A program made the position numbers and the translations under genes. The notes under the pieces were generated by a model. The model had not been told where the DNA came from. It searched no databases and saw only the letters and a program-made list of their open reading frames with translations. From a virus, in the IMG/VR virus record IMGVR_UViG_3300006332_000008, positions 1 through 25,668 of that record: 25,668 nucleotides of DNA; one strand, given 5' to 3'. This document shows positions 931-15,552 of the stretch, piece after piece (the stretch's first letter is position 1; every line of letters starts with the position of its first letter).

Positions 931-975
931 ATTATAATGCCCCCAACAGGAGATGGGGGCATGTTTGTGCCAGTT
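931..975 (-). promoter_or_regulatory. Promoter with upstream AACTGGCA box
   Basis: On the minus strand AACTGGCA (968-975) overlaps the stop codon of the 42-residue gene and is followed after 31 bases by TATAAT (931-936). Three other promoters here (1344, 9722, 10871) have the same box at 30 bases from the -10. No good -35 is visible because the 9-bp hairpin at 937-962 occupies that place. The start of transcription would be near 924, about 22 bases before the ATG at 902. Confidence 0.5.
937..962 (-). terminator. Strong GC hairpin, possible terminator overlapping a promoter
   Basis: A 9-bp perfect stem (ATGCCCCCA / TGGGGGCAT) with an 8-base loop lies 12 bases after the stop of the 42-residue gene. 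On the minus strand it is followed by TATAATAATTA rather than a clean U run, so it is a weaker terminator candidate than the hairpins at 3780 and 5182. It sits where the -35 region of the following promoter should be. Confidence 0.4.
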
Positions 976-1103
976 TATAAAGCGGTCTCTTGCACCTCCG
1001 CAACATCATCAAGAACTGCTAATACATCTGCTGCTGTATCTGCGTTCTCAAGTAGGAACTCCGCAAAGTTGTAAGAAACTGCGTTAGATGAATCAAGTGA
1101 CAT
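975..1103 (-). CDS. 42-residue acidic miniprotein
   Basis: The frame starts at ATG 1101-1103 and ends with TAA at 975-977. The product begins MSLDSSNAVSYNFAEFLLEN and continues as an acidic, Ala/Val/Leu-rich helix ending in ETAL. Composition and codon use look like the neighbouring genes. There is no Shine-Dalgarno; the leader is T-rich (ACTTTTTATT), as in several other genes here. The gene lies downstream of the R1 hairpin and of the small RNA at 1213-1337, so its expression may depend on read-through of that RNA's terminator. Function unknown. Confidence 0.55.
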   Translation of the reverse strand: MSLDSSNAVSYNFAEFLLENADTAADVLAVLDDVAEVQETAL

Positions 1104-1132: not shown

Positions 1133-1210
1133 TGTGGTATGCTCAAGAGGTGCTTCACCTGATCCTAACCCATTTACTGAGTCTAATTACAGGTACTAAG
1201 TCATACCACA
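1133..1210 (-). ncRNA. R1 structured RNA domain, copy a
   Basis: A 64-base block (1140-1203) is identical to 2344-2407. Here it is closed by a 9-bp perfect helix, 1133-1141 with 1202-1210 (TGTGGTATG/CATACCACA). In the other copy the helix has a different sequence but still pairs. Inside are the hairpin AGGTG-AAG-CACCT and a competing ACCTG/CAGGT pairing, which could allow two alternative folds. It lies 29 bases upstream of the 42-residue gene. Sequence repetition plus compensatory change is the evidence for RNA; the family is not recognised. Confidence 0.6.
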
Positions 1211-1212
1211 AG

Positions 1213-1337
1213 AAAAAATTGAGAGAGTGGGGCAATGATCTGGGTTTCACCCATGCTGCCCAAATTTACCCATAGGGAATCGCTTACACCTGAACCCCCA
1301 AACTTAATCGGGGCTATGGAACCACATATCTCTCAAC
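1213..1337 (-). ncRNA. R2 small RNA with its own promoter and terminator
   Basis: Predicted transcript of about 125 nt on the minus strand. It begins (about 1337, 7 bases after a -10 hexamer) with TTGAGAGA and ends with TCTCTCAA followed by TTTTTT, so the 5' and 3' ends form an 8-bp terminal helix (1329-1336 with 1219-1226) that doubles as an intrinsic terminator. Inside, helix P2 pairs CCATAG (1314-1319) with CTATGG (1270-1275) and encloses a CCCC/GGGG hairpin. P4 is GGGCA/TGCCC, capped by TGGGT-GAA-ACCCA. The single-stranded linker GTTCAGGTGTAAGCGATTCC is conserved in the copy at 2136-2255. There is no coding potential. It could be a stand-alone regulatory RNA or a cis-element controlling the 42-residue gene. 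Confidence 0.65.
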
Positions 1338-1343
1338 AAATGT

Positions 1344-1387
1344 ATTGTAGCAGTTTTACATCATAATACAAGTCGGATGTGCCAGTT
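1344..1387 (-). promoter_or_regulatory. Early-type promoter with AACTGGCA box
   Basis: On the minus strand AACTGGCA (1380-1387) is followed by -35-like TTGTAT (1366-1371), a 16-base spacer and TACAAT (1344-1349), with TGC just before the -10 (extended -10). Transcription would begin at about 1337, exactly where the terminal helix of the R2 small RNA starts. The box lies 30 bases upstream of the -10, as at 9722 and 10871. Confidence 0.65.
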
Positions 1388-1845: not shown

Positions 1846-1858
1846 TTGTAATAAAAGT

Positions 1859-1925
1859 AAAATAGCTAGCGGATGTTAGTTCTTTCTTCGGTTGCGAACC
1901 GAGAGGCACATCCATCTCCTCGTAA
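1859..1925 (-). promoter_or_regulatory. 67-base conserved 5' leader element (L), copy a
   Basis: It is identical at 66 of 67 positions to 9487-9553 (only 1893/9521 differs). On the minus strand it reads from GAGGAG through a GGATGT/ACATCC helix (1871-1876 with 1908-1913) with an inner TCGGTT-CGC-AACCGA hairpin, ending just before an AT-rich stretch and the start codon. It also contains ATGGATGTG in frame for a peptide MDVPLGSQPKKELTSASYF, which here runs out of frame into the 147-residue gene. It could be a cis-regulatory RNA or a leader peptide. Confidence 0.6.
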
Positions 1926-2135
1926 TAGTGTGTGGGACTTACAACTTCAAAACTGTCTTTTCAGATGTCCTAGAACATCAGCAGTACAAGAGGTTCGACT
2001 TAAAGAGTTTTCCACAGTGTGCCATCTAAGAGACTCCTGAATTGTTGCTCACCCCTGCCTTGCGTTTGCCCACAATGTAGTTTCCTATCGCCTCCTAGTC
2101 TGAAACCACCAAAGGGACTAGCAGCAGTTGAGAGA

Positions 2136-2255
2136 GTGGGGCATCTACGAGGGTTTCACCCATCATGCCCAAATTTACCCTATGGGAATCGCTTACACCT
2201 GAACCCCCACCACTTGCAAGTAATCATATAAGGAATCTTAGTAGGATAACCCCAC
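2136..2255 (-). ncRNA. R2 structured RNA domain, copy b
   Basis: The 82-base segment 2128-2209 aligns without gaps to 1219-1300; differences are confined to three short blocks. Pairings are kept by different bases. The closing helix is GTGGGG/CCCCAC (2250-2255 with 2136-2141). P2 is TTATCCTA/TAGGGTAA (2242-2249 with 2175-2182), with one G-U pair that only works in the minus-strand RNA. P4 is GGGCAT/ATGCCC with a GGGT-GAA-ACCC cap. The outer TTGAGAGA helix and U tail of the other copy are absent. Confidence 0.6.
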
Positions 2256-2340
2256 AATCCAAAATGATTAAACCCTTGCTCAACCATCAGTCATCTGTGT
2301 GCTGTGATAGGTTTCTTCCAACATCATGTCTCTGCTTCTT

Positions 2341-2410
2341 ACTTGCTCAAGAGGTGCTTCACCTGATCCTAACCCATTTACTGAGTCTAATTACAGGTAC
2401 TAAGTCAAGT
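2341..2410 (-). ncRNA. R1 structured RNA domain, copy b
   Basis: It contains the 64-base block 2344-2407, identical to 1140-1203. The closing helix is ACTTG/CAAGT (2341-2345 with 2406-2410). Three pairs outside the identical block are replaced by other Watson-Crick pairs relative to copy a, which supports a helix under selection rather than a plain DNA duplication. Confidence 0.6.
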
Positions 2411-2468
2411 GTGTCAGAGTAGTCAGAAACTTAGTGATCCGTTGACTGTCTTACACTATAGGAACACT

Positions 2469-2849
2469 TTAGGCGACCCCCCCTTGTTGAAACTCAGCAT
2501 ATAACACATCTTCTAACAATAATGCCTCAGATTCCCTTCTTTCATCATCAAATAGTCCTCTAATTGTCTGGACAATGTGAACAAACTCATGTAATATGGT
2601 TTTAGTGTATTCTTTTTCCGACAAGCTATGGTGAATATGTACTAAGAACTCTTGCTTACCTTCATCATTACAATCTTCTGCAATTTGACAGAATCCATAA
2701 CAATTACTCTCAGTAAGATTACACTGATGAACTTCTACATCTACTTGAGTAAATTCATTATATTGTGTATAAAACCAATCATAAATCTCTCTCACTAAAT
2801 GTAAACTATGGTCACATACTTGCATATCACCTGATGTATATAAAGTCAT
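2469..2849 (-). CDS. Small HExxH zincin-like protein
   Basis: Residues 87-91 are HEFVH within ILHEFVHIVQ, the HExxH zinc-binding helix of metallopeptidases, followed by Glu107 and Glu109, which could supply the third ligand as in gluzincin or SprT-like folds. At 126 residues it is a minimal domain without signal peptide. The upstream Cys/His-rich part (VHQCNLTESNCYGFCQ) may help structure or bind metal. Its ATG overlaps the stop of the ligase-like gene (ATGA), so the two are translationally coupled and may act together. Peptidase activity is an inference from the motif. The gene ends in a shared trailer sequence also found after the methyltransferase at 4236. Confidence 0.65.
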   Translation of the reverse strand: MTLYTSGDMQVCDHSLHLVREIYDWFYTQYNEFTQVDVEVHQCNLTESNCYGFCQIAEDCNDEGKQEFLVHIHHSLSEKEYTKTILHEFVHIVQTIRGLFDDERRESEALLLEDVLYAEFQQGGVA

Positions 2850-3816: not shown

Positions 3817-4122
3817 TTAAGAAATTACACCTGCTAACTTTAAACCTTCTTTGGTTAATGCTTCCAATAATAGTAAAGGAAGAAGAGCAAGTGCGAAACC
3901 ATCACGAGGGTAATCCTTGAGTAGTTTCTCTAAGTTAAGGGTATCTTTTACGGGAGTTGGTGTTACTTCTGTCACTTTAATTACCTCTTTCGGTGTAACT
4001 TTATTTACACGTTTAGGGGCAGTTGTTGTAACTTTCTTAACAGTTGCCCTTGATTCCTTAACAATGGGTGTAGCAGATTTAGCAGTTTTGCGTGATGCTG
4101 ATGTGCGTCTGCGTGTTGCCAT
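3817..4122 (-). CDS. Basic Lys/Thr/Ala-tailed small protein with hydrophobic C-terminus
   Basis: The 101-residue protein has two parts. Residues 1-58 are low-complexity and very basic (MATRRRTSASRKTAKS, then repeated K-V-T and T-P elements), resembling histone-H1-like tails. Residues 61-101 form an amphipathic to hydrophobic segment (ALALLPLLLLEALT at about 77-90) that could bind a membrane or a protein partner. Such proteins in phages may be DNA-binding or packaged in the virion; neither is shown here. It stands alone: a structured 110-base gap precedes it and a strong terminator follows it. The ATG has no Shine-Dalgarno and is preceded by TTTTTTGACTAC. Confidence 0.6.
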   Translation of the reverse strand: MATRRRTSASRKTAKSATPIVKESRATVKKVTTTAPKRVNKVTPKEVIKVTEVTPTPVKDTLNLEKLLKDYPRDGFALALLPLLLLEALTKEGLKLAGVIS

Positions 4123-4145
4123 GTAGTCAAAAAATAAACAATAGG

Positions 4146-4206
4146 GTGAGAGAAGGTCAGGTTAGACTAGATCGTATAGAATGTCAGGTTTGACTCGATC
4201 TCTCAC
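4146..4206 (-). repeat. Hairpin enclosing an 18-base tandem direct repeat
   Basis: An 8-bp helix GTGAGAGA/TCTCTCAC (4146-4153 with 4199-4206) encloses two copies of GTCAGGTTnGACTnGATC (4156-4173 and 4183-4200, 16/18 identical, period 27). It lies between the methyltransferase stop and the 101-residue gene. A T-rich stretch follows on the minus strand, but not immediately, so this is not a standard terminator. It may be a structured leader or a protein-binding site. Confidence 0.5.
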
Positions 4207-4235
4207 TATAAGGACACTTTCATCAAGACCCCTTG

Positions 4236-5165
4236 TTATAAGAAGTTTTCTAATGTTCCTTTTCTATTATTAACTCGTTCTTGTATTAATTTACCATAAT
4301 CCTCGTGCAATTCGCACCCTATGTAATACCTTCCCAACTCTTTTGCTACCATTGCAGTTGTACCACTACCCATAAATGGGTCAAGAATTATATCATTTTT
4401 CTCTGAACCTGCTTTGATACATGGTATTATTAAATCGGGTGGAAATACTGCAAAATGAGCACCTCTATATGGTTTATTTGTTATACTCCAAACAGATCTT
4501 TTATTCTTCTTTGGATATGATTTAGTGAGTCCAGAATGGGGTTGTAATCCTGTACCTTTATTGTGATATTTTCCTTTAGTTCTATCACGAGTACCCCAAT
4601 CTTTCGCTGGTTCTTTAATACTTTCATTGTCATAATAGTATTTCTTGTTCTTACTTAGTAGGAAGATATACTCATGTGATTTAGTACATCTATCTCGTAC
4701 AGATTCAGGCATTGGATTAGGTTTATGCCATATAATATCTTGTCTTAAATACCATCCATCTGCTCTTAATGCAAACGCAAGCATCCAAGGTATTCCAATC
4801 AAATCTTTATCTTTATATCCATTTAGTTTGTTAGATCTACGAGGTGTAGTCTTTGGTAAATCTTGTCTATTAGCAGCGAATGTTTGTTTAGGGATACATC
4901 CATCTTTCCTGTAATTATAATAACTATCACCAATATTCAACCACAATGTACCATCTTCAGTCAATACATTTCTAACTTCTCTGAACACATTCACCATTTC
5001 GTTAACATATTCTTCTGGTGATTGTTCTTGTCCTATCTGTTCATCTTCTCCTCCATAATCACGCAGTCCGTAATATGGTGGTGATGTTACACACATCCTC
5101 GCACTATTTGGTAAGAACGCTGATAACGTCTTACGACAATCTCCAAATAAAATTGTGTCTTTCAT
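4236..5165 (-). CDS. SPPY-type DNA methyltransferase (N4-cytosine or N6-adenine)
   Basis: A complete amino-methyltransferase of 309 residues. The catalytic motif IV, TSPPYYGLRDY, is near the N-terminus (27-32 for TSPPYY). The AdoMet-binding motif DPFMGSGTT is near the C-terminus (262-270), followed by YYIGCEL. This motif order marks the beta-type permutation; SPPY is commonest in N4-cytosine enzymes, but N6-adenine activity cannot be excluded. Other family landmarks are WHKPNPMPESVRDR and SHEYIFLLSK. No cognate nuclease is adjacent, so self-protection of phage DNA is more likely than a restriction system. I chose the ATG at 5163-5165: the promoter at 5172-5200 would start transcription at about this base, making the message leaderless. 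Two ATGs up to 5180 are alternatives. Confidence 0.85.
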   Translation of the reverse strand: MKDTILFGDCRKTLSAFLPNSARMCVTSPPYYGLRDYGGEDEQIGQEQSPEEYVNEMVNVFREVRNVLTEDGTLWLNIGDSYYNYRKDGCIPKQTFAANRQDLPKTTPRRSNKLNGYKDKDLIGIPWMLAFALRADGWYLRQDIIWHKPNPMPESVRDRCTKSHEYIFLLSKNKKYYYDNESIKEPAKDWGTRDRTKGKYHNKGTGLQPHSGLTKSYPKKNKRSVWSITNKPYRGAHFAVFPPDLIIPCIKAGSEKNDIILDPFMGSGTTAMVAKELGRYYIGCELHEDYGKLIQERVNNRKGTLENFL

Positions 5166-5171
5166 GTGCAT

Positions 5172-5200
5172 ATTATACATTAAAAAAGAGGGTTTGTAAA
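5172..5200 (-). promoter_or_regulatory. Promoter overlapping a terminator, likely leaderless message
   Basis: On the minus strand TTTACA (5195-5200), 17-base spacer, TATAAT (5172-5177). The -35 is in the centre of the terminator palindrome. The predicted start, about 7 bases downstream, falls on the ATG at 5165. There is no Shine-Dalgarno in front of any candidate start of the methyltransferase. Confidence 0.55.
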
Positions 5201-5210
5201 CCCTCTTTTT
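5182..5210 (-). terminator. Bidirectional-looking intrinsic terminator
   Basis: A near-perfect palindrome: AAAAAGAGGGTTT on one side and AAACCCTCTTTTT on the other, around a 2-base centre at 5196-5197. On the minus strand the stem is followed by T6, ending the transcript of the 53-residue gene; the plus strand has an equally good T run. Confidence 0.9.
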
Positions 5211-5232
5211 ATTTAATTGTGGTAATTGTCCG

Positions 5233-5394
5233 TTAAACTAATAATTCTGAACATACCCTCCTACAACTATTGTGGTCATCTTCGCAATCAATTAAGCACT
5301 CAAAGTATTCGTCTATTTTATCATCTTGTGATGATTGATTGACACCATGTTTCCAGTGTGCCATTTGATTGAATGTTATTAAACTGTTGGACAA
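5233..5394 (-). CDS. 53-residue twin-CX3C miniprotein with TTG start
   Basis: The start is taken as TTG at 5392-5394 because AAGGAGGT (5399-5406) lies 5 bases from it, while the in-frame ATG at 5362-5364 has no ribosome site; the ATG form would have 43 residues. Cys33-x3-Cys37 and Cys44-x3-Cys48, separated by 6 residues within DEYFECLIDCEDDHNSCRRVC, suggest a helical hairpin held by disulfides or metal. The protein is acidic. It is followed by the strong terminator at 5182-5210 and may be a single-gene transcript from the late promoter at 5484. Similar small Cys-paired proteins are familiar from marine myoviruses; function unknown. Confidence 0.65.
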   Translation of the reverse strand: MSNSLITFNQMAHWKHGVNQSSQDDKIDEYFECLIDCEDDHNSCRRVCSELLV

Positions 5395-8572: not shown

Positions 8573-8872
8573 TTAAATGTTAGGACTATAATCTTTTTCC
8601 CAAACCATATATTCAGGATTATTGACTTCATTATTCTTCCATATACCATAGAAGTGCATCTTAATTACATCAAATCCAAATTCTTCATTGATGTTTTTAC
8701 CTGCTACTTTTGCAAGTTTACAAAAAGCAGGGGCATGTCCATAAGTTAGATATCTCCACTCTGGACACTCTCTAGCATATTTGTACCAACTACGAAGAAT
8801 AGTGGTATCAGAACTTGGTTTTGCAATCTGATTGCGAATAAACTCTTCAAGGATTTCAACAGAATAATACAT
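8573..8872 (-). CDS. 99-residue partner of the MutH-like gene, unknown
   Basis: The ATG (8870-8872) shares a base with the stop codon of the MutH-like gene (TAATG), so translation is coupled. The protein is aromatic-rich (RSWYKYARECPEWRYLTYGH, later KMHFYGIWKNNE) and probably alpha-helical with no membrane segment. Constant pairing with a nuclease would suggest a specificity, inhibitor or accessory role, but only this one locus is visible. No family recognised. It is followed by a gap holding the next operon's promoter. Confidence 0.65.
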   Translation of the reverse strand: MYYSVEILEEFIRNQIAKPSSDTTILRSWYKYARECPEWRYLTYGHAPAFCKLAKVAGKNINEEFGFDVIKMHFYGIWKNNEVNNPEYMVWEKDYSPNI

Positions 8873-9477
8873 TAAATGTTAAAAAGTAGATTTTCAAATT
8901 TACGAGTAAGATAAAATGCCATATACTTATTCTTTAGTTGTTGACCATTATATACTAATGGAGTGTACTTACCTTCCTTATTCTTAGATGCTTTAGTTCT
9001 AATTTGTAGTAGTTTGTTAACTCCATTCTTATCTCTAGGTCCATTGAATGTTTTTAATTGTTCACCATTGTTATATGATGAACGAACACACTCACTAACA
9101 TAATCCCAATCTTCAGATAGTTTATCAAATATCAAAGGAGATGTATATCTATTGAAAATAAGATCTGTATCAAACTTACCTTCTTTAGTGAATCTAATAA
9201 ACCAGCAATTACTTAACTTTGCAAATACTTTACTCTGTTTAAATGATACTCCATTAATCAGTTCATCTAAAACATGTTTTAATTGAGTAACAGCAATAGT
9301 TTGTCCTGTTTTGAATGATTTACCTTCACCATCATCAAAATCAAGTAGACCAGAACACAACTCTTTACCTAATAGTTTCTCAATTATTTGTCCTCTCTTG
9401 CCTTTGTTTCTACCATAGTTAGGTATCAAACTTTTATCAAGAGAGTCAAACTTAGATTTTGCTTCTCGAAGTAACAT
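8872..9477 (-). CDS. MutH/Sau3AI-like restriction-type endonuclease
   Basis: 201 residues from the ATG at 9475-9477. NKGKRGQIIEKLLG (about 24-37) matches the KGxxGxxxExxLG helix of MutH/Sau3AI nucleases, with Glu33 as the first catalytic acid. LDFDDGEGKSFKT (45-57) resembles the D(F)...ExK active-site strand, with Asp46, Glu51 and Lys53; the Asp-Glu spacing is two residues shorter than in MutH. Known members cut at GATC. A frame extension to ATG 9543 exists (MDVPLGSLPKKELTSASYF...), but it is made entirely by the conserved leader element, so I treat it as non-native; the GTG in that leader has AGGAG at 6 bases and is an alternative start. A structured 240-base leader precedes the gene. Likely function: cleaving host or competing phage DNA, or phage DNA processing. 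Confidence 0.65.
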   Translation of the reverse strand: MLLREAKSKFDSLDKSLIPNYGRNKGKRGQIIEKLLGKELCSGLLDFDDGEGKSFKTGQTIAVTQLKHVLDELINGVSFKQSKVFAKLSNCWFIRFTKEGKFDTDLIFNRYTSPLIFDKLSEDWDYVSECVRSSYNNGEQLKTFNGPRDKNGVNKLLQIRTKASKNKEGKYTPLVYNGQQLKNKYMAFYLTRKFENLLFNI

Positions 9478-9486
9478 GACAATAAT

Positions 9487-9553
9487 AAAATAGCTAGCGG
9501 ATGTTAGTTCTTTCTTCGGTAGCGAACCGAGAGGCACATCCATCTCCTCGTAA
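9487..9553 (-). promoter_or_regulatory. 67-base conserved 5' leader element (L), copy b
   Basis: 66/67 identical to 1859-1925. It ends 9 bases before the ATG of the MutH-like gene. The hairpin is TCGGT-TCGCT-ACCGA, where the single base change (9521) opens one pair relative to copy a. It carries GAGGAG at its 5' end, far from the ATG, and in-frame ATGGATGTG codons that would extend the nuclease by 22 residues if used. Confidence 0.6.
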
Positions 9554-10870: not shown

Positions 10871-10914
10871 AGTATAGCAGATTTTTGCCCTCTTTGTCTA
10901 CCCCTATGCCAGTT
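10871..10914 (-). promoter_or_regulatory. Early-type promoter with AACTGGCA box at the virion-block border
   Basis: On the minus strand AACTGGCA (10907-10914) overlaps the TAA of the last glycine-rich gene. It is followed by TAGACA (10895-10900), an 18-base spacer and TATACT (10871-10876) with a TGC extended -10. Box to -10 is 30 bases. It separates late from early-type genes. Confidence 0.7.
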
Positions 10915-12251
10915 TAAACTTTGGTTATCTTAATATATCCGTTACCTGTATATTGTCCACCATCTTGACCAGTGTTACCACCTTGAGTATCTTGCTTATT
11001 AGTTCCAGTATTGTAAGAACCTCCACCACCTCCACAGTGACCATAACTACTCCATGAACCACCAGTGCATCCACCAGTCCATCCACCAGCAGCACCTGGT
11101 GAAGTTAGGTTTCCACCTCCACCTCCACCAAATCCACCTCTATTACCTTGACCTGAACCTGTATAGCAATGGTCACCTCTTCCTCCTATCATTCCATTTT
11201 GCCAACTTCTACCTCCTTGAACACCACCACAATGCCCAGAACCATCTTGACCATTAGTATTATATCCACCACCAGCACCACCTACATGAGGACCACATCT
11301 ACTACCACCATTTCCTGGTGATGGTTGACTTGGTTGGCAATAGCAACTCAAACGACCACCATATTCACCAGATCTACCATAAGAATGACCTGTTGGTCTT
11401 CCACAACCCCAACCATATGAACCACCCATTGAACCACCACCACCTCCAGCAGCAATGAGTAATTGGTTAGAGGTCTTATTCTTAACAAATGAACCACCTC
11501 CACCACCTGCTTCATTTCTATGAGGTGAATAGTATTGATTACCACCAACACCTACAACTAATTCTAATTCTGTTTCTTTTGTTAGTGCAAACGTTCCTTT
11601 AATCTTAGCACCCCAGAAGTCATACTGACCACCACCTAAATCTCTACCACCTCTTGCTCCACCCAATTCCATTTCATAATTACCATCTTCAGGAACAGTC
11701 CATTGTTGATACCCTCTTGCACTTCCTTGCCTCATGTAAGTACCATCATTCCAAGGTTCACCAGAATATGCGTTCTGTATTTGAGACTCCGTTGGTCCTT
11801 CATAATCACCTCTACTTACAATAGATTTGAATACATATGAACTGAAATCAAATAATTTACCACCTTCACCAGCACCAAATGGTGTTATCCAACCCGCCTC
11901 AGTTTCTTCTTCATTATCACCAGGTTCTCCAGGATCCCAATATATTTCTATTACATTTCCATCAGTATTAAATCCTATCCTACCATCAACTAAACCTGTA
12001 GTTGGTCTTGTGTTATCATCCCATGTCGGTAATACATCTAATGCCCTACCAACTGGTAACCAGGAAGAACCATTCCAAACTACCAGTTGTTCTAATGTTG
12101 AATCGTATATACAACAACCAGCATCACCTCCAGTCATTGTCGGTCTTGTAGCAGTAGTAAATACAGGGAATCCTATACCAGCATCACCTGTAACCAAATT
12201 AGATACAGTGATGTTAGTTGAACTTACTCTAGCAGCACTAAATTGAGACAT
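10914..12251 (-). CDS. Glycine-rich fibre/adhesin protein, paralogue A
   Basis: 445 residues. Two copies of a short fibre-attachment module (ATRPTM...IYDSTLEQLVVWNGSSW at about 34-64 and NTRPTT...GFNTDGNVIEIYW at about 80-105) precede a linker. A Gly-rich domain follows from about residue 195 to 440, with GGAGGG and GGGGG runs that would pack as polyglycine-type helices, as in glycine-rich phage adhesins and the ALK/LTK glycine-rich domain. Residues 272-350 are identical to residues 257-335 of the 14257-15552 protein and contain unusual Cys/His clusters (GWGCGRP, LSCYCQP, RCGPH, GHCGG). Likely a distal tail-fibre receptor-binding or capsid-decorating protein. Expressed from the late promoter at 12275. 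Confidence 0.75.
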   Translation of the reverse strand: MSQFSAARVSSTNITVSNLVTGDAGIGFPVFTTATRPTMTGGDAGCCIYDSTLEQLVVWNGSSWLPVGRALDVLPTWDDNTRPTTGLVDGRIGFNTDGNVIEIYWDPGEPGDNEEETEAGWITPFGAGEGGKLFDFSSYVFKSIVSRGDYEGPTESQIQNAYSGEPWNDGTYMRQGSARGYQQWTVPEDGNYEMELGGARGGRDLGGGQYDFWGAKIKGTFALTKETELELVVGVGGNQYYSPHRNEAGGGGGSFVKNKTSNQLLIAAGGGGGSMGGSYGWGCGRPTGHSYGRSGEYGGRLSCYCQPSQPSPGNGGSRCGPHVGGAGGGYNTNGQDGSGHCGGVQGGRSWQNGMIGGRGDHCYTGSGQGNRGGFGGGGGGNLTSPGAAGGWTGGCTGGSWSSYGHCGGGGGSYNTGTNKQDTQGGNTGQDGGQYTGNGYIKITKV

Positions 12252-12274
12252 GAGAAATTATTCCTTCTTATATG

Positions 12275-12282
12275 TATTTATT
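12275..12282 (-). promoter_or_regulatory. T4-type late promoter, AATAAATA
   Basis: One mismatch to TATAAATA, overlapping the TAA stop of the 383-residue gene and 23 bases before the ATG of paralogue A. Read by phage sigma (gp55-type) in T4 relatives. Confidence 0.5.
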
Positions 12283-13429
12283 GATCTGAAGTGAGTGTAT
12301 TTGGAAATGCTCTACCTGGACCCCATATAATACGAACACCACCTACACCACCATATGATCCATATGAGTCATTAGAACCAGCACCACCACCGTAGTCACC
12401 ACCTGGAACATCTGGGTCATTACCTGTGTTTCCTCCACCATTACCACCACCTGATCCACCACGACCATATCCACCACCACTTGAACTATGTTGACCAGAA
12501 GAACCTTCACCGTTGAGACCTACGCCTCCACCTCCTCCTCCATAGGATTCGGAAGAACCTGCATAACCACCTGATCCACCACCACCTTGTCCAGAACTAC
12601 CAGTACCCCAACCTGAAGTATAGTGACCACCTTGACCACCATTTCCTGAGTATCCAGCAGCACCACCTCCACCACAAGATGATCCAGTATCATTTAGACC
12701 GCTTCTATTACCATCTCCTCCATTACCACCAAATCCTCCACCTTGTTGAGTTCCTCCAGTTCCACCAAATCCTCCACCTTGACCACCGTAACCTGGTCTA
12801 CTAGCAGAACCATTTCTATCTCTACCAGTTCCACCTCCTCCACCACCATACACAGTGGCAGTGTCTATAAAATATGAAGTACCACCATTACCAGCATAGT
12901 TTCCTGAAGATGCTGGAGTTCCTTTTGCTCCAACAATTACTTGATAACTCTGACCTGGTTCAACTGGGATACCATTTGCCCATCCAAGACCACCACCTCC
13001 ACCTGCACCTTGTTCATCTCTAGTTGAACCACCGCCACCACCAACACATACTACTGAAACATCATAAACATTTGCAGGACATGTCCAAGTTGAATTACCA
13101 GCAGAAGTAAATGCCTGTTGACCTACATCAGTTGTTTCACCAGTACCAGCACCACCAGCACCTCCTACTGGGGGTTGAACTATCAACTTCCATTCACTAC
13201 CATCATATACTTCTACACCTAACTTAGTCTCATTAATTCTTATCATCCCCTTTTGTGGAGATGAAGGTCTATCGTCAGTCGTGCCTGAAGGAATACATAT
13301 TTGTCCTCCAAAATCCATCTCAATTTTACCTTGTATATTAAGATGCGAAGTAGAATCCATCTGGATCTTCATAAGACCCTGTTCTGGATATTCAGCACCT
13401 AATAGTTTTTCAGCACGAACTGTACTCAT
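12278..13429 (-). CDS. Glycine-rich fibre/adhesin protein with RII-WGPG tail
   Basis: 383 residues. An attachment module IPSGTTDDRPSSPQKGMIRI...VEVYDGSEW lies at about 47-80. A bridging strand pattern (FTSAGNSTWTCPANVYDVSVV) follows at about 107-127. The Gly-rich domain occupies about 129-355, with GGGGG cores, and the end is GGVRIIWGPGRAFPNTLTSD, a conserved terminus of phage glycine-rich proteins also seen in the 675-residue neighbour. It differs from the two paralogues in lacking the Cys clusters. The ATG overlaps the stop of the 166-residue gene (TAATG). Probably a tail-fibre tip or adhesin. Confidence 0.75.
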   Translation of the reverse strand: MSTVRAEKLLGAEYPEQGLMKIQMDSTSHLNIQGKIEMDFGGQICIPSGTTDDRPSSPQKGMIRINETKLGVEVYDGSEWKLIVQPPVGGAGGAGTGETTDVGQQAFTSAGNSTWTCPANVYDVSVVCVGGGGGSTRDEQGAGGGGGLGWANGIPVEPGQSYQVIVGAKGTPASSGNYAGNGGTSYFIDTATVYGGGGGGTGRDRNGSASRPGYGGQGGGFGGTGGTQQGGGFGGNGGDGNRSGLNDTGSSCGGGGAAGYSGNGGQGGHYTSGWGTGSSGQGGGGSGGYAGSSESYGGGGGGVGLNGEGSSGQHSSSGGGYGRGGSGGGNGGGNTGNDPDVPGGDYGGGAGSNDSYGSYGGVGGVRIIWGPGRAFPNTLTSDQ

Positions 13430-13929
13430 TATTCCACACCCTCTGGTTTACCAGTCTCTTCATTATTAAGTCCAACGGCATCATCAATATTAGGTACTTC
13501 TTCATCAGTATGGTCAGTAAGAGTCTTTGCTCTCGCCTCTGCCACTTTTTCTGCTTCTGCTGCTGCCACCGCCATAATCTTTTCATTATTTACCGCTTCA
13601 ATGGTCGCCATATCTCTTTCTACGATTAGATTACCATCCTCATCTAACTCTGAACTACCTAAACTTTCTTCTTTAGTTGTTTTATGTACTAAACCATGCC
13701 CAGTATATCCAATTAATTGATGTGAATTAACATCAGCAGCAGTAGGTTCTATAATAACATCAGAATAAGGATCATCAGGTACTACTGTTGTCTCTCCAAT
13801 AACTTCAGTAAATTGTTGAAGAAGATTTAACTTATATTCAACTGCTTTATCTCTTTGTGCATCAATTTCATTAATCTTCTTATTTGCATCAGCAATAAGA
13901 GTCTTCATTTGTTCTATTGATCTGCCCAT
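13429..13929 (-). CDS. 166-residue coiled-coil virion-region protein
   Basis: The first 45 residues (MGRSIEQMKTLIADANKKIN, then DAQRDKAVEYKLNLLQQF) and residues about 108-135 (Ala/Glu-rich) look like coiled coils, joined by an acidic Pro/Val linker. The C-terminus is acidic. It lies between glycine-rich fibre genes and has its own late promoter (13959). A fibre-assembly chaperone or structural linker is plausible; nothing in the sequence proves it. Downstream start of the 383-residue gene is coupled (TAATG). Confidence 0.65.
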   Translation of the reverse strand: MGRSIEQMKTLIADANKKINEIDAQRDKAVEYKLNLLQQFTEVIGETTVVPDDPYSDVIIEPTAADVNSHQLIGYTGHGLVHKTTKEESLGSSELDEDGNLIVERDMATIEAVNNEKIMAVAAAEAEKVAEARAKTLTDHTDEEVPNIDDAVGLNNEETGKPEGVE

Positions 13930-13958
13930 TGTCTAATCCAATAAAGTTATCCTCAAGT

Positions 13959-13966
13959 TATTTATA
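13959..13966 (-). promoter_or_regulatory. T4-type late promoter, TATAAATA
   Basis: An exact match in the gap between the Cys-rich 96-residue gene and the 166-residue gene, 29 bases before the latter's ATG. Confidence 0.75.
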
Positions 13967-14257
13967 TCACCACTTCTTAATGGGACAAGTTGCATCAGGC
14001 ATTTTACTTTTAGTTTTCATTATACAAAAACATTTCTCACACATATCATTAGCAATATCATAAGCATCACACTTATTACATATTGATAATCTTTCTGCTT
14101 GATGCTCAGGTCTCACAAACATGATGGGTTTACCAATTTCAGATAGAGTCCCATCTGCCCACTCTAATACTTTATCTGAGTACCATGTGGGCATAAAAAT
14201 TGGTGGGTCTGGAGTGGGTGGTGGTAACTTAGAAAGATCTATACCATCAAAATTCAT
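13967..14257 (-). CDS. Cys-rich zinc-binding protein among fibre genes (96 residues)
   Basis: The C-terminal half has Cys60-x2-Cys63, Cys73-x2-Cys76-x-Cys78 and Cys91, ending CPIKKW. The last four Cys have exactly the spacing of the 60-residue protein at 17647-17829 (C-x2-C-x-C-x12-CP-x2-KW), so the two are paralogous domains. The N-terminus is Pro-rich (DLSKLPPPTPDPPIF). The ATG shares a base with the stop of the glycine-rich paralogue B (TAATG), implying coupled translation with that fibre protein. A metal-dependent assembly factor or fibre cap is an inference from position. Confidence 0.75.
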   Translation of the reverse strand: MNFDGIDLSKLPPPTPDPPIFMPTWYSDKVLEWADGTLSEIGKPIMFVRPEHQAERLSICNKCDAYDIANDMCEKCFCIMKTKSKMPDATCPIKKW

Positions 14258-15552
14258 TATTTCTTAGTAATCTTAATGTATCCGTTACCTTGATATTGTC
14301 CACCAGTTGTTCCTGAATTACCGCCTTCTTGATTGTCTGCGTTCTGTCCTGAATTATAGGAACCTCCACCACCTCCACAGTGACCGTAACTACTCCATGA
14401 ACCACCTGTACATCCACCAGTCCATCCTCCAGCAGCACCAGGACTTGTGAGGTTTCCACCTCCTCCTCCACCGAATCCACCAGAGTTACCTTGACCATTA
14501 TTAGGAGAATAACAATGATCTCCTCTACCACCTATCATTCCATTATTCCAACTTCTACCTCCTTGAACACCTCCGCAATGTCCAGAACCATCTTGTCCGT
14601 TAGTGTTATAACCTCCTCCAGCACCACCAACGTGGGGACCACATCTACTACCACCATTTCCTGGTGATGGTTGTGATGGTTGACAATAACAACTTAAACG
14701 ACCACCGTACTCTCCAGATCTACCATAAGAGTGTCCTGTTGGTCTTCCGCAACCCCAACCATACGAACCACCCATAGATCCACCAGCACCTCCAGCAATA
14801 ATCAAATGTTGGTTTGTAGTAGCGTTCTTAACAAATGTACCTCCACCTCCACCACATGAATTTCTATGAGGTGAATAGTATTGGTTACCACCAACACCAA
14901 CAACCATTTCTAATTCTGTTTCTTTGGTTAATGCGAAGGTTCCTTTAATAACAGCACCCCAGAAGTCATATGAACCTCCACCTAAATCTCTACCACCTCT
15001 AGCACCACCACACTCTATCTCATAATTACCATCTTCAGGAACAGTCCACTTTTGAAAACCTTGAGAAGCACCTTGCTTAAAATATGTACCATCATTCCAA
15101 GGTTCACTTCCATACTCACTTTGCATCTGTGAATATGATGGTCCTGAATATGACCCTCTACCTACAATAGACTTAAAGGTAAAACTATTGAAATCAAATA
15201 GAGCAGCAGAAGCACCTTCAGCAGATGAACCAAATAATAACCAATCTGAACCGTTGAATATTTCTGCCTGTGATGTAGTAGTATTAAAACCAAACTGTGC
15301 AACCGAAGGAGATGATGGACGTGTCTCTGTTGTCCACGTTCTCATATTACCAGCACCCAGACTTAACCAAGAACTTCCTTTCCAAACTTCAACATCAGTT
15401 CCAGTTGTGTTGTATATAACTGTTCCTGGGTCAGCACTAGAAGGTTTACCAGAATCGGCATAATTAGGTGCTTTTAATGCACTACCAGCAGAAACAATTC
15501 CTGTTGCGTGTAAATCCTGCCCATTAATAGTGTCTACGTTTAAGGTACTCAT
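14257..15552 (-). CDS. Glycine-rich fibre/adhesin protein, paralogue B
   Basis: 431 residues with the same plan as the 10914-12251 protein: two attachment modules (GKPSSADPGTVIYNTTGTD and ETRPSSPSVAQFGFN regions, about 35-108) and a Gly-rich domain from about 180. A 79-residue block (257-335) is identical in the two proteins, although their DNA differs at many silent sites. The duplication is therefore not recent and the block is under strong purifying selection. Extra Cys residues at about 181 and 233 are missing from the paralogue. Expressed from the late promoter at 15578; an AAAGGAG site precedes the ATG region. Confidence 0.8.
   Translation of the reverse strand: MSTLNVDTINGQDLHATGIVSAGSALKAPNYADSGKPSSADPGTVIYNTTGTDVEVWKGSSWLSLGAGNMRTWTTETRPSSPSVAQFGFNTTTSQAEIFNGSDWLLFGSSAEGASAALFDFNSFTFKSIVGRGSYSGPSYSQMQSEYGSEPWNDGTYFKQGASQGFQKWTVPEDGNYEIECGGARGGRDLGGGSYDFWGAVIKGTFALTKETELEMVVGVGGNQYYSPHRNSCGGGGGTFVKNATTNQHLIIAGGAGGSMGGSYGWGCGRPTGHSYGRSGEYGGRLSCYCQPSQPSPGNGGSRCGPHVGGAGGGYNTNGQDGSGHCGGVQGGRSWNNGMIGGRGDHCYSPNNGQGNSGGFGGGGGGNLTSPGAAGGWTGGCTGGSWSSYGHCGGGGGSYNSGQNADNQEGGNSGTTGGQYQGNGYIKITKK

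Follow-up and report, generated by a model that had tools for sequence, protein, structure and literature searches.

R2, a modular structured RNA domain in predicted untranslated regions of P-SSM2-like cyanophages

On comparative sequence grounds, R2 is a new structured RNA family of marine viruses with a nested, exchangeable architecture. It is clearly a real folded RNA that is under selection as RNA, and more than 130 marine viral contigs carry copies of it. R2 forms a self-contained domain, located in what we predict to be the untranslated parts of transcripts of P-SSM2-like cyanophages. The window (the whole stretch of viral DNA analysed, 25,668 nucleotides) contains one intact copy, and the segment 1141–1336 is identical in the Prochlorococcus myoviruses P-SSM2 and P-SSM5. 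The preliminary description had suggested an undescribed family of structured phage RNA, and covariation, the lack of an Rfam match and the spread over marine contigs bear this out. The covariance model of relatives that it had proposed was built and run with cmsearch; the intact copy scores 140.9 bits, being itself among the 20 copies in the model. The features of the locus are as follows.

1219–1336, minus strand: R2 RNA domain, intact copy, 118 nt, supported by cmsearch and by covariation in relatives
1329–1336, minus strand: P1 5′ arm, TTGAGAGA, pairs with 1219–1226
1219–1226, minus strand: P1 3′ arm, TCTCTCAA, pairs with 1329–1336
1323–1325 with 1227–1229, minus strand: P1b, inner part of P1
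1314–1319, minus strand: P2 5′ arm, CCAUAG, pairs with 1270–1275
1270–1275, minus strand: P2 3′ arm, CUAUGG, pairs with 1314–1319
1296–1313, minus strand: P3 hairpin, the plug-in site, occupied by other modules in relatives
1275–1297, minus strand: R2 core, 23 nt, GGGUUCAGGUGUAAGCGAUUCCC, 17 of 23 positions invariant in 137 copies
1230–1261, minus strand: P4 (1257–1261 with 1230–1234) and the P5 hairpin (1250–1253 with 1241–1244)
1344–1349, minus strand: −10-like box, TACAAT, 7 bases upstream of P1; a TG precedes the box by one base
1213–1218, minus strand: U6 linker, a U-run not conserved as a terminator
1133–1210, minus strand: module M11, closed by UGUGGUAUG/CAUACCACA, second copy at 2344–2407; a repeat (D11) that recurs after R2 in relatives
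975–1103, minus strand: 42-aa ORF, PSSM2_071 homologue, behind the R2 and M11 leader
1853–2470, minus strand: second, longer mosaic leader with M11, insert pieces, the R2 3′ half, further modules and D10 (repeats D9–D11), before a 147-aa ORF (1402–1845)
2128–2209, minus strand: R2 copy 2, 3′ half only, the 5′ half replaced by other modules, 61.5 bits
1871–1921, minus strand: D10 hairpin module GGAUGU...ACAUCC, repeated at about 9499–9549

The consensus fold P1–P5 was derived from 20 compact copies. P1 closes the domain, with P2–P3 and P4–P5 branching off it. Among these copies, 99.0% of the cells of the named structure are paired (87.4% after shuffling) and the covariation score is 0.37 (0.15 shuffled). 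Double-changed cells number 75, as compared to 22.8 in the shuffled controls, although the copies share ancestry and the counts do not represent independent events. None of 500 shuffles matches the pairing fraction, the double-change count or the covariation score; the number of further pair types in the 20 copies is not above that of the shuffles. When the partner columns are slid by 1–3 positions, pairing falls to 28–62%. P1, P2, P4 and P5 stay paired via compensatory changes, beyond the shuffled controls. With long-insert copies included, 128 of 130 have the full 6-bp P2; shuffling the partners leaves a mean of 41 and a maximum of 56. There are 11 sequence variants of the paired arms, one of which is a five-pair form, and the arms lie 21–238 nt apart. 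The sequence of P1 varies more than that of P2 (TTGAGAGA/TCTCTCAA, AAGCAACGAT/ATCGTTGCTT and ATGAAAGGGA/TCCCTTTCAT); its pairing rate is biased by a search that demanded pairing. The diversity of the P1 and P2 sequences and the variable distance between the arms make structure-free explanations very unlikely. The paired ends (1336–1329 with 1226–1219) and the helices P2–P5, first read from the window, are confirmed, the comparative evidence being decisive. Single-sequence folding (z −1.9) is weak evidence and was discarded as proof of the structure.

The wobble cells in the 20 copies comprise 16 G-U and 1 A-C, which identifies the minus strand as the folding strand, in agreement with the strand preference first proposed. 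R2 is also co-oriented with the promoter-like box and with the next gene. A DNA-level element (a replication origin or a recombination site), folding either in single-stranded form or as a primer in an R-loop, would be consistent with one copy per genome in shifting places, but the wobble ratio and the co-orientation with boxes and genes point to RNA, and the P2 arms around the core stay matched. We regard a DNA element as scarcely plausible.

The conserved strand of about 20 nt, together with the joining segments, would be the likely functional core of R2. In 137 copies, including those from a scan anchored on P4/P5 that ignored the core, 17 of the 23 core positions are invariant. At position 5, T, A and G occur, and at position 12, T and C. 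Four copies have T instead of C at position 23, and P2 is compensated in each (CCTATA/TATAGG in three, CCCGTA/TACGGG in one). An absolutely invariant core was rejected as circular, as it came from core-seeded scans and the P4/P5-anchored scan exposed the variants. A role of the core as a recombination hot spot is ruled out by the P2 arms, which stay matched on both sides. The core segment AGCGAUUCC (1276–1284, minus strand) is complementary to GGAAUCGCU, which we take to be a conserved stretch of 16S rRNA; by a rough estimate, such complementarity would arise by chance about one time in five. P3 serves as a socket, filled by a short hairpin in some copies and by other RNA modules in others. 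It is a small hairpin in the short forms, and the P2 arms can be as far as 238 nt apart because P3 holds inserted modules. Many P3 inserts are framed, as read by eye, by CCC-GAA-helix-AGUA-GGG, presumably akin to the bulged-G (sarcin-ricin) internal loop. The inserted pieces reappear elsewhere, in series.

In the window, the −10-like box (1349–1344) is followed by R2 (1336–1219), U6, M11 (1210–1133) and the 42-aa ORF (1103–975), with no terminator between them. The promoter box first noted is indeed present, and transcription is predicted to start at or adjoining the base of P1; a strict sigma-70 scan did not list the box. It had also been proposed that R2 is a complete stand-alone unit, about 125 nt long and closed by a U-tailed terminator. 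A small RNA that ends at P1 and U6 would fit the promoter-like box, the paired ends and the U6 of the window locus, but a U-run of at least five follows P1 in only 14 of 89 relatives, a terminator scan over 900–2600 found none, and M11 and the ORF come after R2 and recur together with it. This makes a stand-alone RNA very improbable. At two other loci (L040 and L075), R2 is located about 30 nt before a homologue of the same 42-aa ORF. R2 and M11 are shared with P-SSM2, and the ORF is nearly identical there, but the promoter region differs and an S-like module lies upstream in P-SSM2. The window and P-SSM2 diverge close to the 5′ end of P1, which is direct evidence for exchange at module borders.

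The recurrence at 2128–2209 holds, with 87% identity, but its reading as a compensated homologue does not. Neither the P1 nor the P2 5′ arm was found within 400 nt of copy 2. Of the 114 copies for which 400 nt upstream could be read, it alone is missing the 5′ half. It is a chimera in which only the 3′ half is intact, a broken copy. The pairing TTATCCTA/TAGGGTAA proposed for it is a coincidence, as TTATCCTA is a segment of the P3 insert in locus L034, where it lies next to a canonical P2. Elsewhere in the window, the minus strand at 4142–4216 has a P1-like hairpin (GTGAGAG...CTCTCAC) and a near-tandem AGTC(A/T)AACCTGAC before a 101-aa ORF (3817–4122); its match to the R2 model is weak (9.3–9.8 bits). 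The region 10914–15552 encodes two glycine-rich, fibre-like proteins that have in common stretches with about 86% DNA identity (11163–11462 and 14509–14808), likely a duplication.

P-SSM2, P-SSM5 and 13 large contigs each contain exactly one R2, with different genes behind it. Nearly all copies have a same-strand gene 17–300 nt downstream, and P1 ends about 17–33 nt before the start codon where no further module follows. This is the placement of an mRNA leader, with the exception of locus L058, in which a well-paired R2 has no ORF directly behind it and only the apparent 3′ end of a lost ORF remains. Upstream of the 114 copies, 59 have a similar −10-like box right before P1, at the same spacing, 25 an intercistronic motif (AAAGUGUCC..UAUAGUGUGAG), 16 the S module and 5 another motif; 8 are unclassified, and 1 (copy 2 of the window) lacks the 5′ half. 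R2 is, as judged from these positions, a domain within longer predicted transcripts; it would form the 5′ end, behind a promoter-like box, in about half of the copies, and most of the others are intercistronic or behind another RNA module. The intercistronic motif (GGGGGACGCxTAAAGTGTCCTTATAGTGTGAG; for example, at L090 and L019) has no clear −10 box. It is also found in the window at 2447–2490 and 4200–4235 and may be a processing site or an unusual promoter. The genes directly behind R2 include homologues of PSSM2_071 (26), the UvsW-type helicase 039 (10), 070 (8), a gene near 62.6 kb (8), 072 (4), a gene at 66.7 kb (4) and others; 34 have no P-SSM2 homologue. The downstream proteins fall into at least 21 clusters, mostly without assigned function. 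The position of R2 shifts between genes across 42–67 kb of the P-SSM2 map.

The reading we rank first, tentatively and from sequence, is that R2 may act in cis, as a structured leader on which the fate of its mRNA depends. P1 would bury the 5′ end of the RNA and shield the message from the RNase E pathway, and/or a factor bound at the core would control translation. With P1 starting just behind the −10-like box in 59 of 114 copies, the start of the RNA would fall at P1 or right beside it. The 21 or more downstream gene clusters fit an effect, stability for example, that does not depend on the gene. The 5′-terminal stem-loops that stabilise mRNA, such as that of the Escherichia coli ompA leader, have a paired 5′ end and a gene-independent effect. 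R2 resembles them in the paired 5′ end near the transcription start; it adds a conserved core and a plug-in site, about half of its copies appear to lie away from the 5′ end, and its effect on stability is putative. RNase E rises in Prochlorococcus under infection by a podophage, and this phage's own transcripts are, for the most part, shielded by antisense RNA (PMC9692554). Given this rise, phage mRNAs would gain from protection. Protection of the 5′ end would not be the whole story, as about half of the R2 copies are not directly behind a promoter-like box.

If R2 were a metabolite-sensing riboswitch or attenuator for the gene behind it, a conserved core in a multi-branched RNA before genes would likewise be expected. 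The genes behind R2, however, share no pathway over the 21 clusters, and the distance from P1 to the start codon, often 17–33 nt, leaves little room for a terminator switch and has neither a terminator nor a conserved sequestering stem. We consider sensing of a metabolite improbable.

Against a cis-acting leader, it is odd that a single R2 per genome precedes differing genes, and L058 (no ORF directly behind R2) and the UvsW-type helicase gene, which appears to have its own promoter, also speak against it. In the reading ranked second, somewhat unlikely in our judgement, R2 and its plug-in would form a trans-acting phage non-coding RNA, cut or accumulated from the leader, for example as a protein decoy or scaffold, and the gene would be a passenger. 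One R2 per genome with changing genes behind it, the 17 core positions invariant in 137 copies, the self-closed ends and the well-paired R2 of L058 agree with this, and the large phage RNAs GOLLD and ROOL are precedents (PMC12286853). On the other hand, R2 lies 17–33 nt before start codons in many genomes and has no conserved terminator, and direct repeats are expected to be lost via recombination in T4-like phages, which would explain the single copies.

R2 is one of several nestable RNA modules (R2, RA, S, D10 and M11) that form one island per phage genome and are shuffled before different genes. The helices of RA, S and the other companions were read by eye. The S module consists of UUGGCA, a helix and UGUAAGUCC; it recurs in series and within other modules. 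It is located near R2 at many loci (for example, L003, L005, L049 and L076), and UGUAAG is common to the S module and the R2 core. The RA core consists of GUCUGAC, an insert and AGAAGCAGAC. RA is found as a leader in its own right too, which GGGAAACAAA.../...UUUUGUUUC closes and whose hairpin likewise carries inserts, and at L179 the RA core lies inside an R2-like P1. RA appears as a second structured RNA class, in which TATAATAAGCACATG is followed by GGGAAACAAA...TTTTGTTTC with exchanged inner stems and hairpin inserts, at L003 (P-SSM2, minus strand, about 5120–5270, upstream of PSSM2_070), L064 and L163–L186. Several RA loci were scanned and gave no Rfam match. The D10 stem is read as CGGUU/AACCG, GUGGG/CCCAC or UGGG/CCCA. 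D10 reads as the start of an ORF (MDVPLGSQPKKELTSAS...), likely a mis-called N-terminus of ORF 8872–9543. It was rejected as coding sequence, as the stem changes in sequence but, by eye, stays paired, and as the PHROG match of the ORF behind the second copy starts downstream, at residue 29. An assignment of ORF 8872–9543 as an endonuclease was dropped with no Pfam or PDB match. Three companion patterns show 0 or 1 occurrence in most records, usually a few kb from R2; the extra distant matches in two records carry 3 mismatches. By blast, the modules of P-SSM2 sit in no leaders other than those of PSSM2_070 and PSSM2_071. A generic leader of all early genes was rejected, as the other intergenic matches in P-SSM2 are shared terminator-promoter cassettes.

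R2 and its companions might instead be a selfish or hitch-hiking module spread by phage recombination, perhaps aided by neighbouring homing endonucleases, with folding serving mainly to keep the transcripts they enter from harm. The shifting position of R2 across the P-SSM2 map, the coincidence of module borders with exchange points (for example, the one directly upstream of R2 where the window departs from P-SSM2) and an HNH-like ORF directly behind R2 in L082 and L068 would agree with this. The purifying selection on the core and on pairing, seen over many sequence variants, exceeds the needs of harmlessness, and no transposase or target-site signature was found; we think selfish spread quite doubtful. 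The ORF in L082 and L068 (139 aa, about 19 nt behind R2) shows an HNH-like Cys/His pattern by eye and has no Pfam match; it may be a homing endonuclease. It is also conceivable, but unlikely, that P-SSM2-like phages each build one combinatorial RNA locus from shared modules, which would yield a trans-acting RNA with a fixed scaffold core and a varying plug-in.

The Rfam check that had been suggested gave no family match: with Rfam 15 at the gathering threshold, neither the window nor any of 20 related contigs had a match, and relaxed thresholds gave no credible match to R2, only chance snoRNA scores. R2 does not belong to manA, wcaG, PhotoRC-II, glnA, GOLLD, ROOL, the group I introns or another Rfam family. 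ARAGORN gave no tRNA or tmRNA match. The exact 23-nt core is found in at least 119 viral contigs and is absent from 84,980 bacterial and archaeal species genomes. In the open-access literature, no paper describing R2, the P-SSM2 locus tags or modular cyanophage leaders was found. The put antitermination RNA of phage HK022 is structured and located at the start of early phage transcripts. R2, likened to it by description only, would also be a structured RNA of early transcripts and could act on RNA polymerase; unlike put, it is also found far inside transcripts. The structured manA and wcaG motifs (RF01745 and RF01761) occur in marine metagenomes and T4-like cyanophages, where they lie in what may be the 5′ UTRs of genes of several types (PMC2864571). 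R2 shares this setting, but neither R2 nor its leaders match the two models; R2 has no association with metabolic genes, and it has nested, exchangeable inserts. In cyanobacteria and cyanophages, the glnA and Downstream-peptide RNAs (the glutamine riboswitch class) are likewise leaders that precede a short ORF (PMC2864571; PMC9964418); R2 has no such Rfam match, and the ORFs behind it are many and unrelated. GOLLD and ROOL are large, ornate, phage-encoded RNAs of unknown function, and GOLLD, like R2, has a conserved and a variable part (PMC12286853). R2 differs in its size (118 nt without inserts) and its location in mRNA leaders. It matches neither of them by sequence or by model, and the modules that make up its variable part are also found elsewhere.

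The phages that carry R2 infect Prochlorococcus, an ocean cyanobacterium that ranks among Earth's most abundant photosynthetic cells, and as P-SSM2 and P-SSM5 are cultured isolates, R2 is directly testable. The intergenic DNA of well-studied cyanophages can hide RNA families that are missed by Rfam-based annotation, and some of this DNA had been read as the N-termini of ORFs. A leader made of interchangeable, nestable RNA domains differs from the fixed architectures of riboswitches or of GOLLD and ROOL and would show that RNA domains are shuffled like protein domains. A combinatorial trans-acting RNA locus, if true, would be a new route for viruses to diversify functional RNA.
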